A model generated the notes under the pieces. That model was given only the letters and a program-made list of their open reading frames with translations, did no database searches and was not told the origin of the DNA. Of a stretch of 64,000 bases of DNA, positions 1,672 through 51,290 are shown one piece after another. Origin of the DNA: Streptomyces rubradiris (lineage in GTDB: Bacteria; Actinomycetota; Actinomycetes; Streptomycetales; Streptomycetaceae); contig NZ_BNEA01000001.1 of assembly GCF_016860525.1 (NCBI RefSeq), forward strand, positions 1,133,501-1,197,500, in the 5' to 3' direction. Made by a program: the position numbers and the translations under genes. Numbering within the stretch: the first letter of the stretch is position 1; every line of letters begins with the position of its first letter.

Positions 1672-2499
1672 TCAGCCGCCGGTCGCGGGCAGGACGGACC
1701 CGTGGTACTTGTCCTTGATGAACGCGCGGACCTCGGGTGAGACGAGCAGGCCGGCGAGCTTCTTCACCCGTGGGTCGTCCTCGTGGCCGCGTTTGACGGC
1801 GAGGAGGTTGGCGTACGGGTTGTCCTCCGCCGACTCCAGCAGGATCGCGTCCTCGGCGGGGCTCAGGCCCGCGTCCTGCGCGTAGTTGTTGTTGACGACC
1901 GCGGCGTCCACGTCGTCGAGCGAGCGGGGCAGCTGGGCGGCCTCCAGCTCCCTGAACCTCAGGTGCCGGGGGTTGTCGGTGACGTCCCGGGGTGAGGCGT
2001 CGGCGCCGGCGCCCGCCTTGAGCTTGATGACACCGCCGGCGGCGAGCAGCTTCAGGGCGCGGCCCTCGTTGGTGATGTCGTTGGGTACGGCGACGGTGGC
2101 GCCGTCGGCGAGGCCGGTGATGTCCTTCACCCGGTGCGAGTAGACGCCCATGGGCGGCAGGTAGGGCTTGACGACCGGGACCAGGTCGGTGCCCTTGGAC
2201 TCGTTGAAGTCGTCCAGGAAGGGCTGGTTCTGGTAGAGGTTGGCGTCCAGCTCGCCCTCCTGGAGGGCGGTGTTGGGCAGGACGTAGTCGGTGAACTCCT
2301 TGATCTCCAGCTTCAGGCCGGCCTTGGCGGCGAGGTGGTCCTTGATGTAGGTGAGCACCTCGCCGGCCGGGACGGCGGTGGCGCCGACGACGAGGGTGTC
2401 GTCCTTGCCACCGCCCTTGCCTGAGTCCGTGCCGGAGCCGCAGGCGGTGAGGCCGAGGCCGAGGGCCAGGGCCGCCACCGCGGCGACGGACGTGCGCAT
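1672..2499 (-). CDS. metQ: Methionine ABC transporter substrate-binding lipoprotein, copy 2
   Basis: 275 residues. A short hydrophobic signal ends in the lipobox LTAC (Cys20), so the mature protein should be lipid-anchored outside the membrane. It is an NlpA/MetQ family protein (PF03180): LKLEIKEFTDYVLPNTALQ, NLYQNQPFLDDFN and ATVAVPNDITNEGRALKLL are the typical binding-domain segments. It binds methionine (possibly D-Met or other sulfur amino acids) and delivers it to MetNI. It is the last gene of the operon, 22 nt after the upstream metQ, and the two are clear paralogues over their full length, so they arose by tandem duplication. Which ligand each prefers cannot be told. Confidence 0.92.
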   Translation of the reverse strand: MRTSVAAVAALALGLGLTACGSGTDSGKGGGKDDTLVVGATAVPAGEVLTYIKDHLAAKAGLKLEIKEFTDYVLPNTALQEGELDANLYQNQPFLDDFNESKGTDLVPVVKPYLPPMGVYSHRVKDITGLADGATVAVPNDITNEGRALKLLAAGGVIKLKAGAGADASPRDVTDNPRHLRFRELEAAQLPRSLDDVDAAVVNNNYAQDAGLSPAEDAILLESAEDNPYANLLAVKRGHEDDPRVKKLAGLLVSPEVRAFIKDKYHGSVLPATGG

Positions 2500-2521
2500 G
2501 GCGTCAGTCCCCCTCGGCGGC

Positions 2522-3352
2522 TCAGAACGACGGGATGACCGAGCCCTGGTACTTGTCGTCGATGAACTTCTTGACCTCGGGCGAGGTGAGGAGCTTGGCC
2601 AGCTTGGTCACCCGCGGGTCCTTCTCGTTGCCCTTCTTCACGGCGAGGAAGTTGCCGTAGGGGTTGTCCTTCGGGGACTCCAGGACGAGGGCGTCCTTGG
2701 CGGGCTTCAGGCCGGCGGAGATGGCGTAGTTGCCGTTGACCACGGCCGCGTCGACGTCGTCCAGGGAGCGCGGGGTCTGGGCCGCCTCGACCTCCTTGAA
2801 CTTGAGGTTCTTGGGGTTCTTGGTGATGTCCCGCGGGGTGGCCTCGTTGCCGGCGCCGTCCTTGAGGGTGATCAGCCCGTTGTCGGCGAGCAGCTTCAGG
2901 GCGCGGGCCTCGTTGACGGCGTCGTTCGGGACGGCGACGGTCGCACCGCTCTTGAGGGCGTCGGCCTTCTTGACCTTGTGGGAGTACAGGCCGAGCGGTT
3001 CCAGGTGCACCGTGACGACGGGCACGATGTGGGTGCCGCGCTTGTTGTTGAAGTCGTCGAGGTAGGGCTGGTTCTGGAAGTAGTTGGCGCCCACCGAGCC
3101 GTCCTCGGTCGCCGTGTTCGGCGCGATGTAGTCGGTGAACTCCTTGACCTCCAGGTCGAGGCCCGCCTTCTTCGCCAGCTTGTCCTTGACGAAGTTGAGG
3201 ATCTCGGCGTGCGGGGTCGGGCTCGCGGCGACGATCAGCGGGCCGTCGGCGTCGAGGGAGCCGGAGTCCTTGTCGGAGCCGCAGGCGGTCAGCCCGAGGG
3301 TGAGGGCTGAGGCGGCGAGGACGGCGGTGGTGAGCTTGGCGGTGTTACGCAC
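2522..3352 (-). CDS. metQ: Methionine ABC transporter substrate-binding lipoprotein, copy 1
   Basis: 276 residues, signal peptide with lipobox LTAC (Cys24). Same NlpA/MetQ fold as its neighbour: DLEVKEFTDYIAPNTATED, NYFQNQPYLDDFN, ATVAVPNDAVNEARALKLL. It follows metI by 91 nt on the same strand and precedes the second metQ by 22 nt, so all four genes should be cotranscribed. The charge is shifted compared with copy 2: the C-terminal half is richer in Lys. Function is binding of methionine at the cell surface; the duplication may widen ligand range or dosage. Confidence 0.93.
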   Translation of the reverse strand: MRNTAKLTTAVLAASALTLGLTACGSDKDSGSLDADGPLIVAASPTPHAEILNFVKDKLAKKAGLDLEVKEFTDYIAPNTATEDGSVGANYFQNQPYLDDFNNKRGTHIVPVVTVHLEPLGLYSHKVKKADALKSGATVAVPNDAVNEARALKLLADNGLITLKDGAGNEATPRDITKNPKNLKFKEVEAAQTPRSLDDVDAAVVNGNYAISAGLKPAKDALVLESPKDNPYGNFLAVKKGNEKDPRVTKLAKLLTSPEVKKFIDDKYQGSVIPSF

Positions 3353-3443: not shown

Positions 3444-4181
3444 TTACGCGACCTTGCTGATCTCGGCCGCGGCGGGCTCCTTGGCCTTCAGCAGGCGGAG
3501 CTTGGGGGCCGGGCCGGAGCGGGCGCCGCGGCGGTGCAGGGAGCGGGCGGCGAAGTCGCCGGCGAACTGGATGAGGGAGATGACGACGGCGAGGATCGCC
3601 ACCGTGATCCACATCAGTTCGGTCTCGAAGCGCTGGTAGCCGTAGCGGACGGCGAGGTCGCCGAGGCCGCCGCCGCCGACCGTGCCGGCCATGGCGGAGT
3701 AGCCGATGAGGGCGATGATCGTGGTGGTGGTGGAGGCGATCAGCGAGGGCAGGGCCTCGGGGACGAGGACCTTGCGGACGATCGTCCAGGTGTTGCCGCC
3801 CATGGACTGCACGGCCTCGACGAGTCCCTGGTCGACTTCGCGCACGGCCGTCTCGACCAGGCGGGCGAAGAAGGGGATGCCGCCGATGGCGAGCGGCACG
3901 ATGGCGGCGGTGGTGCCGATGGTGGTGCCGGTGACCCAGCGGGTGAAGGTCATCAGCGCGACCATCAGGATGATGAACGGCATGGACCGGCCGACGTTCA
4001 CGACCTGGCCGATCACCTTGTTGGCGAGGACGTTCTGCAGCAGGCCGCCCCGGTCCGTGAGGACCAGGAGGATGCCGAGCGGCAGGCCCGCGACGACGGC
4101 GATCACGGTGGACCAGAGCACCATGGTGAAGGTCTGGCTACACGCGTCCGACAGCAGCGGCTGCATCTCCGACCAGGTCAC
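3444..4181 (-). CDS. metI: Methionine ABC transporter permease
   Basis: 245 residues from GTG 4181, with about five membrane segments. It matches MetI: a start MTWSEMQPLLSDACSQTF, QVVNVGRSMPFIILMVAL, and the coupling loop EAVQSMGGNTWTIVRKVLVPEALP that docks on the MetN ATPase. The start overlaps the metN stop (GTGA), which suggests coupled translation and equal amounts. The protein forms the membrane channel for methionine uptake with MetN and the MetQ lipoproteins. Confidence 0.96.
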   Translation of the reverse strand: MTWSEMQPLLSDACSQTFTMVLWSTVIAVVAGLPLGILLVLTDRGGLLQNVLANKVIGQVVNVGRSMPFIILMVALMTFTRWVTGTTIGTTAAIVPLAIGGIPFFARLVETAVREVDQGLVEAVQSMGGNTWTIVRKVLVPEALPSLIASTTTTIIALIGYSAMAGTVGGGGLGDLAVRYGYQRFETELMWITVAILAVVISLIQFAGDFAARSLHRRGARSGPAPKLRLLKAKEPAAAEISKVA

Positions 4182-5212
4182 TTGGCACCTTCCTTCACCA
4201 GCGGGGCGTCCTGGCCCACGACGTCGATCTGCAGGCCCTGCTCGCGCAGGAACCCGATCGGGACCACGTTGTCCTCGTAGCGGCCGGGCAGTTCGATGCG
4301 CATCCGGCCGACCTGGAGGCCGCCGACGGTGTCGATGGCGGCGCCGAGGATCGAGATGTCGATGTTGTAGGTGCGGGCGAGCTGGGAGACGACCGGCTGG
4401 GTGGCGCTCTCGCCGTGGAAGGTGACGTCGAGGACGGTCCGGTCGGCGCCGGTGGCCTCGCCGCCCACCGGGAACAGCGCGGCGGCCAGCGTGGAGCCCG
4501 GGGTGGCCAGCAGCTCGCTGACGGTGCCGGACTCCACGATCCGGCCCCGCTCCATGAGGGCGGCGGAGTCGCAGATCGTCTTCACGACGTCCATCTCGTG
4601 GGTGATGAGCAGGACGGTCAGGCCCAGCTGCCGGTTCAGGTCGCGCAGCAGCTGGAGGATGGAGCGGGTGGTCTCCGGGTCCAGGGCGCTGGTGGCCTCG
4701 TCGGAGAGCAGCACCTTGGGGTCGCCGGCCAGGGCGCGGGCGATGCCGACGCGCTGCTTCTGGCCGCCGGAGAGCTGGGCGGGGTAGGCCTTGGCCTTGT
4801 CGGCGAGGCCGACGAGGTCCAGCAGCTCCAGGGCCTTGCGGGAGCGCTCCTTGCCGGACTTGCCGAGGATCTCCAGCGGCAGCTCGACGTTGTCCTGGAC
4901 GGTCCGCGAGGACAGCAGGTTGAAGTGCTGGAAGACCATGCCGATCCGGCTGCGGGCGCGGCGCAGCTCCCGGCCGGCCCGCGGGCCGCGCCCGGCCAGG
5001 GCGGTGAGGTCCTGCCCGGCGACGGTCACGGTGCCGGAGGTGGGGCGCTCCAGCAGATTGACGCAGCGGATGAGGGAGGACTTGCCGGCGCCGGACTGGC
5101 CGATGACGCCGTAGACCTCGCCTTCGCGGACGTGCAGATCGACGCCGTCGAGGGCGGTGACCTCACGGCCGCGGGAGCGGTAGACCTTGGTCAGGCCCGA
5201 GGTGGTGATCAC
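4178..5212 (-). CDS. metN: Methionine ABC transporter ATP-binding protein
   Basis: 344 residues from GTG 5212, which follows GACGGAAA; longer in-frame starts at 5227 (GTG) and 5269 exist but the family begins at the ITTSGLTKVYRSRG stretch. Walker A is GQSGAGKSS, the ABC signature LSGGQKQRVGIA, Walker B VLLSDEATSALD, and the switch His is in LLITHEMDVV. The last ~100 residues (from about RTYNIDISILGAAID) are the NIL domain, which in MetN of E. coli binds methionine and inhibits transport when the cell is full. First structural gene of the operon; the long leader before it carries a Cys/Met-rich ORF. Confidence 0.95.
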   Translation of the reverse strand: MITTSGLTKVYRSRGREVTALDGVDLHVREGEVYGVIGQSGAGKSSLIRCVNLLERPTSGTVTVAGQDLTALAGRGPRAGRELRRARSRIGMVFQHFNLLSSRTVQDNVELPLEILGKSGKERSRKALELLDLVGLADKAKAYPAQLSGGQKQRVGIARALAGDPKVLLSDEATSALDPETTRSILQLLRDLNRQLGLTVLLITHEMDVVKTICDSAALMERGRIVESGTVSELLATPGSTLAAALFPVGGEATGADRTVLDVTFHGESATQPVVSQLARTYNIDISILGAAIDTVGGLQVGRMRIELPGRYEDNVVPIGFLREQGLQIDVVGQDAPLVKEGAK

Positions 5213-5372
5213 GTGGGTTTCCGTCACTGTCGAGTGCGCGGGCGTGGGTGTGCCCGGGCACGGGTGCATGCGGTTGCGGCATGGAGCGGGGGGTGCGTCT
5301 CGTACGGCCTACGGCGCACGGACATGCCACGGTCTCGCTTCGGGGCGCGAGGCTGGCTGATGCGGGGGCCCT
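5213..5372 (-). promoter_or_regulatory. Untranslated part of the metN leader
   Basis: The 160 nt between the small leader ORF and metN hold no other gene. On the coding strand CGCATCAG (+ coordinates 5357-5364), just after the leader stop, is complementary (one G-U) to CUGAUGUG inside the Leu-Met-Cys codons of the leader ORF (5392-5399). Downstream, CTCGC and GCGAG form a 5-bp hairpin with an 8-nt loop, and a GTGCCCGGGCAC palindrome lies about 45 nt before metN. No SAM riboswitch core is seen. The layout fits attenuation, but no clear terminator with T tract is present. Confidence 0.45.
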
Positions 5373-5429
5373 CTAGAAGGCGCACATTCGACACATCAGG
5401 CGACACATACAACGAGCACCGGGCGTCAT
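5373..5429 (-). CDS. Cys/Met-rich leader peptide of the met transporter operon
   Basis: An 18-residue ORF, MTPGARCMCRLMCRMCAF, ends with TAG 160 nt before metN. Ten residues from position 7 hold four Cys and three Met. GAGG lies 5 nt before its ATG. The same frame also opens upstream at ATG 5471 (32 residues), which overlaps the HAD stop as ATGA and has a TTTACT -10-like box 6 nt before it, as in a leaderless transcript. Runs of rare sulfur amino-acid codons directly upstream of a methionine transporter are what a ribosome-stalling attenuator needs, and Cys-rich leader peptides are known in actinobacteria upstream of sulfur genes. The function is inferred. Confidence 0.6.
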   Translation of the reverse strand: MTPGARCMCRLMCRMCAF

Positions 5430-5907
5430 GGTCGCCTCGGTCGCAAGGGTGCGGCAGCTCGTCGTGGTCATGCGCTCAGTAAACCAGACGGGCGGTCCCG
5501 GACGGCCGCCGATGTCCGGATGCTGGACAACGGCGGACAGTGCGGGCCGGGGTCTCGGCCGCGGCGGGATGTCGTCACGCCCCGGTCGGTGACCAGTGCG
5601 GACAAGGCCGACAGGTCGTCGACCACCAGGTCGGCGTCCAGGTCCGCGGCCCGGTGGGTTGTGGCCAACGCCACGGTGGTCATGCCGGCCGCGCGGCCGG
5701 CCGGCAGTCCGGCGGGGGCGTCCTCGAAGACAACGCACTGGGCAGTGTCCACGCCGGGCTGCCGGGCGGCCGGCAGACAGGGCTCGGGGTGAGGATTGCC
5801 GCGGGTGACGTCGTCGGCCGAGACCAGGGCCTTCGGCGTGATGCCGACGGCACCCAGGCGGGCCTCGGCGAGGCGGCGGGTGGCGGAGGTGACCACGGCC
5901 CAGCGGA

Positions 5908-5950
5908 TGGGGGTCCCCCGGCTCCGAGCGAAGCCGAGGAGTTGGGGGAG
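5908..5950 (+). repeat. Palindromic dispersed element A inside the HAD gene
   Basis: A 43-nt imperfect palindrome beginning TGGGGGTCCCCCGG and ending TTGGGGGAG, with CTCCGAGCGAAGCCGAGGAG as the central hairpin. It is the type of small GC-rich palindrome scattered through Streptomyces genomes. It sits at the join of the second and third HAD frames. Confidence 0.7.
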
Positions 5951-6155
5951 GGCAGGGCGTCCAGGAAGTCCCGGGTGCCGGGCAGCAGGCGTACGCCCCC
6001 GTTCGGCACGTCCTCGACCTCCAGCCGCTCGACCCGGGCGACCGCCTCCGGGACCAGGTGCGCGGGCGGCAGGTCGGCGACGATCTCGGCGGCCGGGCGC
6101 CCGCGCAGTTCCACGCGGCCGAACTCCTCGGCGGTGATCCCGTACTCCTGGGTGG

Positions 6156-6204
6156 TGGGGGTCCCCCCGAGGACGGAGCTTGCCGGAGTCCTCGGGGGAA
6201 GGAG
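6156..6204 (+). repeat. Palindromic dispersed element B inside the HAD gene
   Basis: Starts TGGGGGTCCCCCC like element A and folds as CCCCCCGAGGA / TCCTCGGGGG around a 15-nt loop. It sits at the join of the first and second HAD frames, where the family expects a short helix after motif I, so it has replaced or interrupted coding sequence. Confidence 0.7.
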
Positions 6205-6354
6205 CAGCAGCGCTCGACGGAGTCGGGCGAGGAGACGAGGGTGCCGTCGTCGTCGGAGAGGAGGGCGTGCGCGTGGATCGTCATGGGTGCAGGCCCTACG
6301 GCGTTCGGCGGGGGCGGCGGCCGGGGCACGTTTCGGCCGTAATAAGGTCACGGC

Positions 6355-51078: not shown

Positions 51079-51109
51079 CAAAAATGCCCCGGACGATCAC
51101 CTGCGGGGC
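51079..51109 (-). promoter_or_regulatory. Intrinsic terminator (attenuator) in the infC leader
   Basis: On the transcribed strand GCCCCG and CGGGGC (51104-51109 and 51086-51091) enclose a 12-nt loop and are followed by ATTTTTG. It lies 86 nt before infC and well after the promoter at 51291-51320, so it can only end transcription within the leader. Confidence 0.65.
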
Positions 51110-51290
51110 TCCAATACATCCGGAGCACCGCCGCGATGTCGCGGGGCGCGCTTTCGGGCGACTCCATCGCCCGTACGGAACGATGGCGGTCACCTGACCG
51201 GACCCGCCGTCCCGGGGGACGGAGCAGGTGGGAGATCGGAGCCTCCACTTGTGGGCCGAACACGCAGGTGTCCGGCCGGTCGTTTCCCCC

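Follow-up and report, generated by a model that had tools for sequence, protein, structure and literature searches.

A conserved leaderless leader with a cysteine and methionine codon tract precedes the metN operon of Streptomyces rubradiris and probably acts as an attenuator

A short open reading frame crowded with cysteine and methionine codons lies directly ahead of a methionine transporter operon in the 64,000-nt stretch of the Streptomyces rubradiris genome analyzed here (the window), and raises the question of whether its translation could set the expression of the transporter. The leader ORF runs from an ATG at 5471-5469 to a TAG stop at 5375-5373, and 160 nt separate this stop from the metN GTG at 5212 (Table 1). 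A Cys/Met codon tract sits 3-12 codons ahead of the stop in this window; its ten residues, CMCRLMCRMC, include four Cys that alternate with Met, Arg and Leu and form no contiguous run. The coordinates, the composition of four Cys and three Met in 10 residues and the gap to metN given in a preliminary description of this DNA were all confirmed. In a search of all six frames of the 64 kb, a density of seven Cys/Met per 10 residues was unique to the leader tract, and such a stretch arose in 0/20 simulated 64-kb sequences of a Markov-1 model; the observation of a Cys/Met leader is correct and beyond chance. The leader ORF matched no family in Pfam or NCBIfam up to E = 1. The two metQ-type lipoprotein genes at 1672-3352 are paired in tandem within one metNI operon.

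Table 1. Features of the metN leader region and operon, in window coordinates
Feature	Positions	Strand	Basis
metQ/NlpA lipoprotein 2	1672..2499	-	profile matches
metQ/NlpA lipoprotein 1	2522..3352	-	profile matches
metI permease	3444..4181	-	profile matches
metN, methionine ABC transporter ATPase with NIL domain	4178..5212	-	profile matches
metN-proximal conserved element GCGCACUCGACAGUGACGGAA with putative ribosome site; complements leader UGUCGA-AU-GUGCGC	5219..5239	-	
Hairpin CUCGC-GCCCCGAA-GCGAG after leader stop, without U-tract	5334..5351	-	exact 18-mer counts
metL-type leaderless leader ORF, 32 codons, MTTTSCRTLATEATMTPGARCMCRLMCRMCAF	5373..5471	-	ORF list; 191/194 homologues; published metL
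Tract of Cys/Met codons (CMCRLMCRMC) that includes the rare codons UGU and CGA	5382..5411	-	codon and residue counts
Near-invariant UGUCGAAUGUG, including the CGA-AUG codon pair	5383..5393	-	CGA counts, alignment
Predicted three-way junction inside ORF: outer stem P1, arms P2 and P3 (P3 = 5418-5441)	5409..5465	-	inferred
-10 box TTTACT, 6 nt 5' of leader ATG	5478..5483	-	promoter pattern scan
Operator-like dyad TGTCC-N7-GGACA, similar to the published NdgR motif; start 58 nt 5' of leader ATG	5513..5529	-	

Conservation of the leader was assessed upstream of metN in related genomes. At a strict cut-off, metN relatives were present in 143 of 150 genomes of a genus sample, 98 of 121 of a family sample and 135 of 147 of an order sample; these samples overlap, and the loci examined upstream of metN come from part of their metN-bearing genomes. 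Loci with metN at more than 60% identity and its start in reach numbered 194, the window included; L018 and L085 (metN start unplaceable), L001 (a copy of the window) and seven loci of other ABC genes (identity 43.9-49.3%) were omitted. Leaders were accepted at 22-42 codons with a tail of R-M/M-C type. By this filter a homologous leader stands upstream of metN in 191 of the 194 loci, which belong to families f1 and f3. The remaining three are L179, with a Cys-rich tail (CRCCTCAR) that has no CGA-ATG, L099, where an intact start was not found, and L142, a longer variant. Loss of the ORF or of its Cys/Met codons beside a retained metN, which the preliminary description named as evidence against its proposal, is seen in at most these 3/194 loci. 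Both residues occur in the tract of all 191 accepted leaders, as the proposed Cys/Met mix would have it, although the presence of Met or Cys in every leader is partly by construction, since the filter demands an R-M/M-C type tail. The genus-level consensus is approximately MTTTSxRTxATEATxTPGARCMCRMCAF. The first half diverges in family f3 and in genera including g18 and g7, where the CRMCxx-type end is mostly kept. A narrower leader pattern was found in 7/31 genomes, a figure that is not a count of leaders. With close to two hundred related species sharing the leader, in large part with identical letters, it is very probably a real switch that responds to Cys/Met shortage.

The promoter region is as regular as the tract. 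In 190/191 leaders the first ATG is preceded, at a distance of 6-7 nt, by a TTTACT-like -10 box, and a Shine-Dalgarno-like motif (GGAG, GAGG or AGGA) occurs at the usual place before this ATG in 0/191. Because of this spacing and the missing motif we regard the leader as leaderless, and transcription should start at the leader AUG. The preliminary description had put first an 18-codon frame starting at 5429 with a ribosome site, and had offered the 32-codon leaderless start at 5471 as an alternative; it is the alternative that is conserved. We rejected the shorter frame, as its ATG at 5429 with GAGG varies among relatives: of the 146 ATEA-type leaders, 74 have a Met within the four codons that follow ATEA. 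The GAGG ahead of this ATG belongs to one arm of predicted hairpin P3.

Within the leaders, Cys and Met are concentrated before the stop, where they make up 977 of the 2483 residues encoded by the last 13 codons versus 160 of 2822 earlier residues (191 leaders, start Met excluded); each set of 13 residues holds 1-5 Cys and 1-5 Met. The codons are themselves unusual. In the last 11 codons, TGT makes up 363/563 Cys codons, versus 1.0% in 97 metN genes, and CGA 192/479 Arg codons, versus 1.2% in the same genes. The CGA is found at codon -5 from the stop in 172/191 leaders and at codon -4 in 14/191, with ATG as the next codon. CGA is decoded by inosine. Conservation at third codon positions is 96% among 87 leaders of 28 codons, compared with 77% in metN codons 2-20, and 10/47 types of one-step codon variants are synonymous, against 26% expected without coding constraint. 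Such third-position conservation with no synonymous bias suggests that selection acts on the nucleotides as such, through the rare codons, the RNA shape or both; since the variation is free of synonymous bias, the sequence may even be kept as RNA or DNA and not for its codons.

The preliminary description had also proposed a pairing between CUGAUGUG (5399-5392) and CGCAUCAG (5364-5357). These segments can form a helix of 8 bp, including one G-U, and both are found in 9/191 leaders. CTGATGTG lies by the leader end in 10/191 leaders, each of which has an RLMCRMC tail. Nine of these ten have CATCAG after the stop (L202 has CATCAT), as do 0 of the other 181. As a general switch the pairing was rejected, being confined to one small group of leaders.

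The closest known system is metL of S. lividans TK24, which occupies the same place before metNIQ, encodes a homologous peptide and has a leaderless start mapped with RNA-seq (PMC8079986). Its 29-residue peptide, MSTTSDRTPATEATTTPGARCMCRRMCAF, is the exact product of loci L047 and L050. The published label is that of a methionine attenuator with "several methionines and threonines" (PMC8079986); cysteine, the CGA-AUG pair and conservation, all described here, are not discussed in the accessible part of that paper. Hairpins downstream and the lack of a typical Rho-independent terminator are common to metL, as described there, and to the leaders in our set. Our search on metNIQ leader peptides, the Streptomyces metN leader and SCO1559 returned PMC8079986 alone for this leader; subscription papers lay mostly beyond its scope, and we do not claim absence from print. 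Together with this independent annotation, the conservation, the leaderless promoter and the pre-stop enrichment of Cys and Met strongly support the amino-acid-sensing leader peptide that the preliminary description envisaged. New in this work are the order-wide conservation, the mixed Cys and Met tract, the near-invariant CGA-AUG pair in rare codons, the constraint on nucleotides over protein, the hairpins on either side of the tract and, outside the order, candidate leaders biased to Cys or Met.

Two further groups of leaders are comparable. The leaderless polycysteine ORFs of mycobacteria (Canestrari et al. 2020, via PMC9031893 and PMC13236596) likewise start without a leader, carry Cys codons and precede a sulfur operon, and translation attenuation is their described readout; they differ in having contiguous Cys codons and cysteine genes, with no Met mentioned in the accessible text. 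The leaderless start is thus common to these attenuators, to S. lividans metL and to the leaders studied here. The cys-operon leaders of Mycobacterium and others (PMC1262725) share Cys codons near the stop and the lack of a conserved terminator hairpin, and differ in the operon served and in their Cys runs. A Rho-dependent terminator has been suggested for the cys-operon leaders, with tnaC named as the comparison (PMC1262725). The metN leader would resemble E. coli tnaC in the readout that we propose, in which a ribosome held by the leader stop shields a Rho site. Arrest in tnaC depends on the nascent peptide and free tryptophan, not on codon starvation.

Taken together, we consider it probable that this ORF is the leaderless metL peptide of a metN-metI-metQ-metQ operon and acts by ribosome-mediated attenuation on Cys and Met. 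The transcript would begin at the leader AUG, and the ribosome would pass a hairpin-forming stretch into the Cys/Met tract amid UGU and CGA-AUG. When charged Cys- or Met-tRNA is short, we infer that the ribosome would pause on the tract, beside the stop; when both are plentiful, it would finish the leader and depart. Two readouts could follow. In the one ranked most likely, to which we give somewhat less than even weight within the attenuator hypothesis, departure of the ribosome would expose the C-rich 160-nt spacer and transcription would end before metN through Rho, and a paused ribosome would shield the start of the spacer, as proposed for tnaC. In the one ranked next, to which we give slightly less weight within the same hypothesis, the freed tract would pair beside the metN ribosome site and block translation, as in the mycobacterial polycysteine leaders.

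We also put forward, tentatively and at well below even confidence, a dual-input attenuator in which one leaderless leader senses the charging of both Cys- and Met-tRNA via a fixed UGU-CGA-AUG-UGY word, the rare CGA slowing the next Met codon. Methionine import would in this case be tied to the supply of sulfur amino acids throughout the order, and relatives elsewhere in the class would have shifted to Cys-only or Met-rich sensing. If true, a single short RNA would integrate the supply of both sulfur amino acids across an order of antibiotic producers, the near-invariant CGA-AUG, set against genes that hardly use CGA, would offer a test of codon-context pausing that is natural and easy to mutate, and the published label of "methionines and threonines" would be corrected toward cysteine and methionine.

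The spacer between leader and metN bears on the readout. A scan of 5150-5600 found no terminator-like site and TTTTT is present in 1/191 spacers, on which grounds an intrinsic terminator was rejected. Spacers are 45% C and 29% G; the corresponding values upstream of the leader are 34% and 33%. The largest C-minus-G excess per 78 nt averages 20 in the spacers, a value attained at 1.2% of positions in the window. The spacer ahead of metN in the window itself peaks at 22, and the best of 21 other, crudely defined upstream gaps at 21 (metN is given as 11 in our table of upstream gaps because that row starts from a longer ORF). We take the C-rich spacer as compatible with Rho, and no more.

The second readout has the tract paired alongside the metN ribosome site until a ribosome that pauses for Cys or Met frees this site, and it draws on a possible long-range helix. 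The metN-proximal element was found in 138 of the 146 ATEA-type leaders tried, and UGUCGA-AU-GUGCGC of the leader forms 12/12 pairs with its GCGCACUCGACA in 65 of these 138 and at least 10 in 128. Ensemble folding of 73 leaders ranked this as the strongest averaged contact between the leader and the metN-anchored spacer (0.21 per register), and in 116/122 the duplex energy to the metN-proximal 45 nt fell below the average for the remaining spacer windows. The mycobacterial polycysteine ORFs give it a precedent. Against it, most changes in the helix break pairs and compensatory ones are almost absent, and PTG-type leaders (25 distinct, mostly of genus g18) do without the complement (z +0.3) yet keep the tract motif. 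Predicted accessibility of metN -14..+6 was 0.47 in the free RNA versus 0.46 with the region of a stalled ribosome masked (64 leaders), with a mean change of -0.016 and a rise above +0.1 in 2/64, and opening of this region by a stalled ribosome was rejected. At metN -24..-8 (41 leaders) accessibility rose from 0.30 to 0.36 with the tract masked and to 0.38 with the stop masked, compared with 0.31 for a control mask. The suggestion in the preliminary description that stalling frees metN thus fails at -14..+6 and has a weak counterpart at -24..-8, where a ribosome at the stop opens the region at least as much, so that the effect is no stronger for stalling than for termination. As an account of the locus we find this sub-case of the attenuator doubtful, and freeing of the metN ribosome site fits slightly less well than a Rho-type readout.

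A different reading takes the sequence to be kept mainly as a folded or protein-binding RNA, possibly ligand-sensing, with the ORF incidental or secondary. The about equal conservation of synonymous and non-synonymous sites favors it, as do two predicted structures. The first is a three-way junction just 5' of the tract, predicted from 86 distinct 28-codon leaders and the window. Across 117 distinct leaders of ATEA/ATGA type its cells are paired at 96%, a level reached by 0/300 shuffles, and slid versions of the junction pair at 25-45%; the stems stay while loop and junction codons vary. Arm P3 (ACCG-A-GGCG/CGCC-CGGU) is the firmest, with any pair broken in at most 3/117 leaders and a loop of variable length. 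Support for P1 and P2 is mixed, as P1 is broken at 7:63 in 13, at 9:61 in 8 and at 10:60 in 14 of the 117, and P2 at 22:27 in 26. The four junction pairs with two-sided change were matched by 9/300 shuffles, and the only clear two-sided change in P1, G-C to A-U, appears in 16 leaders, all of a single related type. The predicted fold is a different one in genus g18 and family f3, and the variable junction loops are unlike a ligand pocket. Our folding tests, here and for the readouts, took every second, third or fourth leader. The folding energy lay on average 1.2 SD below codon-order shuffles, with z < -2 in 7/48 leaders and -0.5 for that of the window.

The second structure is the hairpin past the stop. 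Its 18-mer, CTCGCGCCCCGAAGCGAG, is present exactly within 110 nt of the stop in 136/191 leaders and with up to two mismatches in 154/191. Among the genomes of 31 relatives the exact string occurs in 13, compared with 0/31 for a reversed control, and adjoins metN in 12 of the 13; the copy in the other (G001) is near a contig end, and a strict metN match is absent there. At L183, by eye, a GGGGGACCCC-type palindromic repeat breaks into this otherwise conserved CUCGC hairpin. Rfam covariance models, the SAM riboswitch included, gave no match to 5100-5650 at gathering score or up to E = 5, and a known riboswitch or other Rfam RNA was rejected. This absence, the modest folding energies, the broken P1 and P2 pairs and a leaderless AUG that argues for translation make a structured RNA with an incidental ORF unlikely.

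Upstream of the leader, the operator-like dyad TGTCC-N7-GGACA starts 57-69 nt ahead of the ATG in 101/191 leaders, and a relaxed form of it in 144/191. This genome has three copies of the strict pattern, TGTCCNNNATNNGGACA, one of them 39 bp ahead of a gene scoring above cut-off as a 3-isopropylmalate dehydrogenase (leuB-type); leuB and cysI are published targets of NdgR, and the published motif is similar to the dyad. A SenR site is predicted 31 nt before SCO1559 (PMC4991794). Under oxidative stress SCO1557-1559 rise together with cysteine genes (PMC4991794), which we count in favor of the attenuator. A leader that is a side effect of its leaderless promoter, with metN controlled by such upstream factors through an NdgR-like operator or a SenR site, is nevertheless very improbable, as this leaves both the Cys/Met enrichment and the conserved nucleotides of the last 11 codons unexplained, the exact published NdgR motif fits 12/191 leaders, and metN is not among the accessible rows of the NdgR regulon.

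The attenuator that we favor may have counterparts beyond the order. In a class sample, metN was found at cut-off in 46/246 genomes. At L214 (family f19) a leader ends in CRRMCGC and is followed by a hairpin like CUCGC-GCCCCCGAA-GCGAG. Tails with GGRC, DGRC or GGCC were seen at L218, L219, L220 and L221 and, by eye, at L228, L230 and L231, and Met-rich tails at L216 and L224 and, by eye, at L215 and L217; a scan for at least two Cys near the stop found none in others, such as L223, L226 and L227. We regard these as candidates for Cys- or Met-biased leaders at class level. Three PAPS-reductase loci of the same genome were scanned: L242 has two short Cys frames, the same two appear in L243, and both are presumed intragenic; further upstream of these loci no short Cys frames appeared at the scan thresholds.

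A second sulfur leader is possible at L245, where a short frame with one Cys, MSGTGIALVSRRHVDLGRMSSAICPVG (3024-3107), stands before a sulfite reductase region. A relaxed copy of the dyad, TGTCCGGATGATGGACG, starts 57 nt upstream of the ATG of this frame, the same spacing as at metN (2967-3107). Two further features of the window were noted. The minus strand at 5468-6299 carries what appears to be the remnant of a HAD-family hydrolase, seemingly split over frames, of which the frame at 5468-5896 matches the C-terminal part of HAD models; by eye, two palindromic repeats ending in GGGGGACCCCC lie within this stretch, at about 6205-6155 and 5945-5905. The window's only Rfam match at gathering score is Scr1601 (Streptomyces RNA 1601), on the minus strand at 51079-51284.
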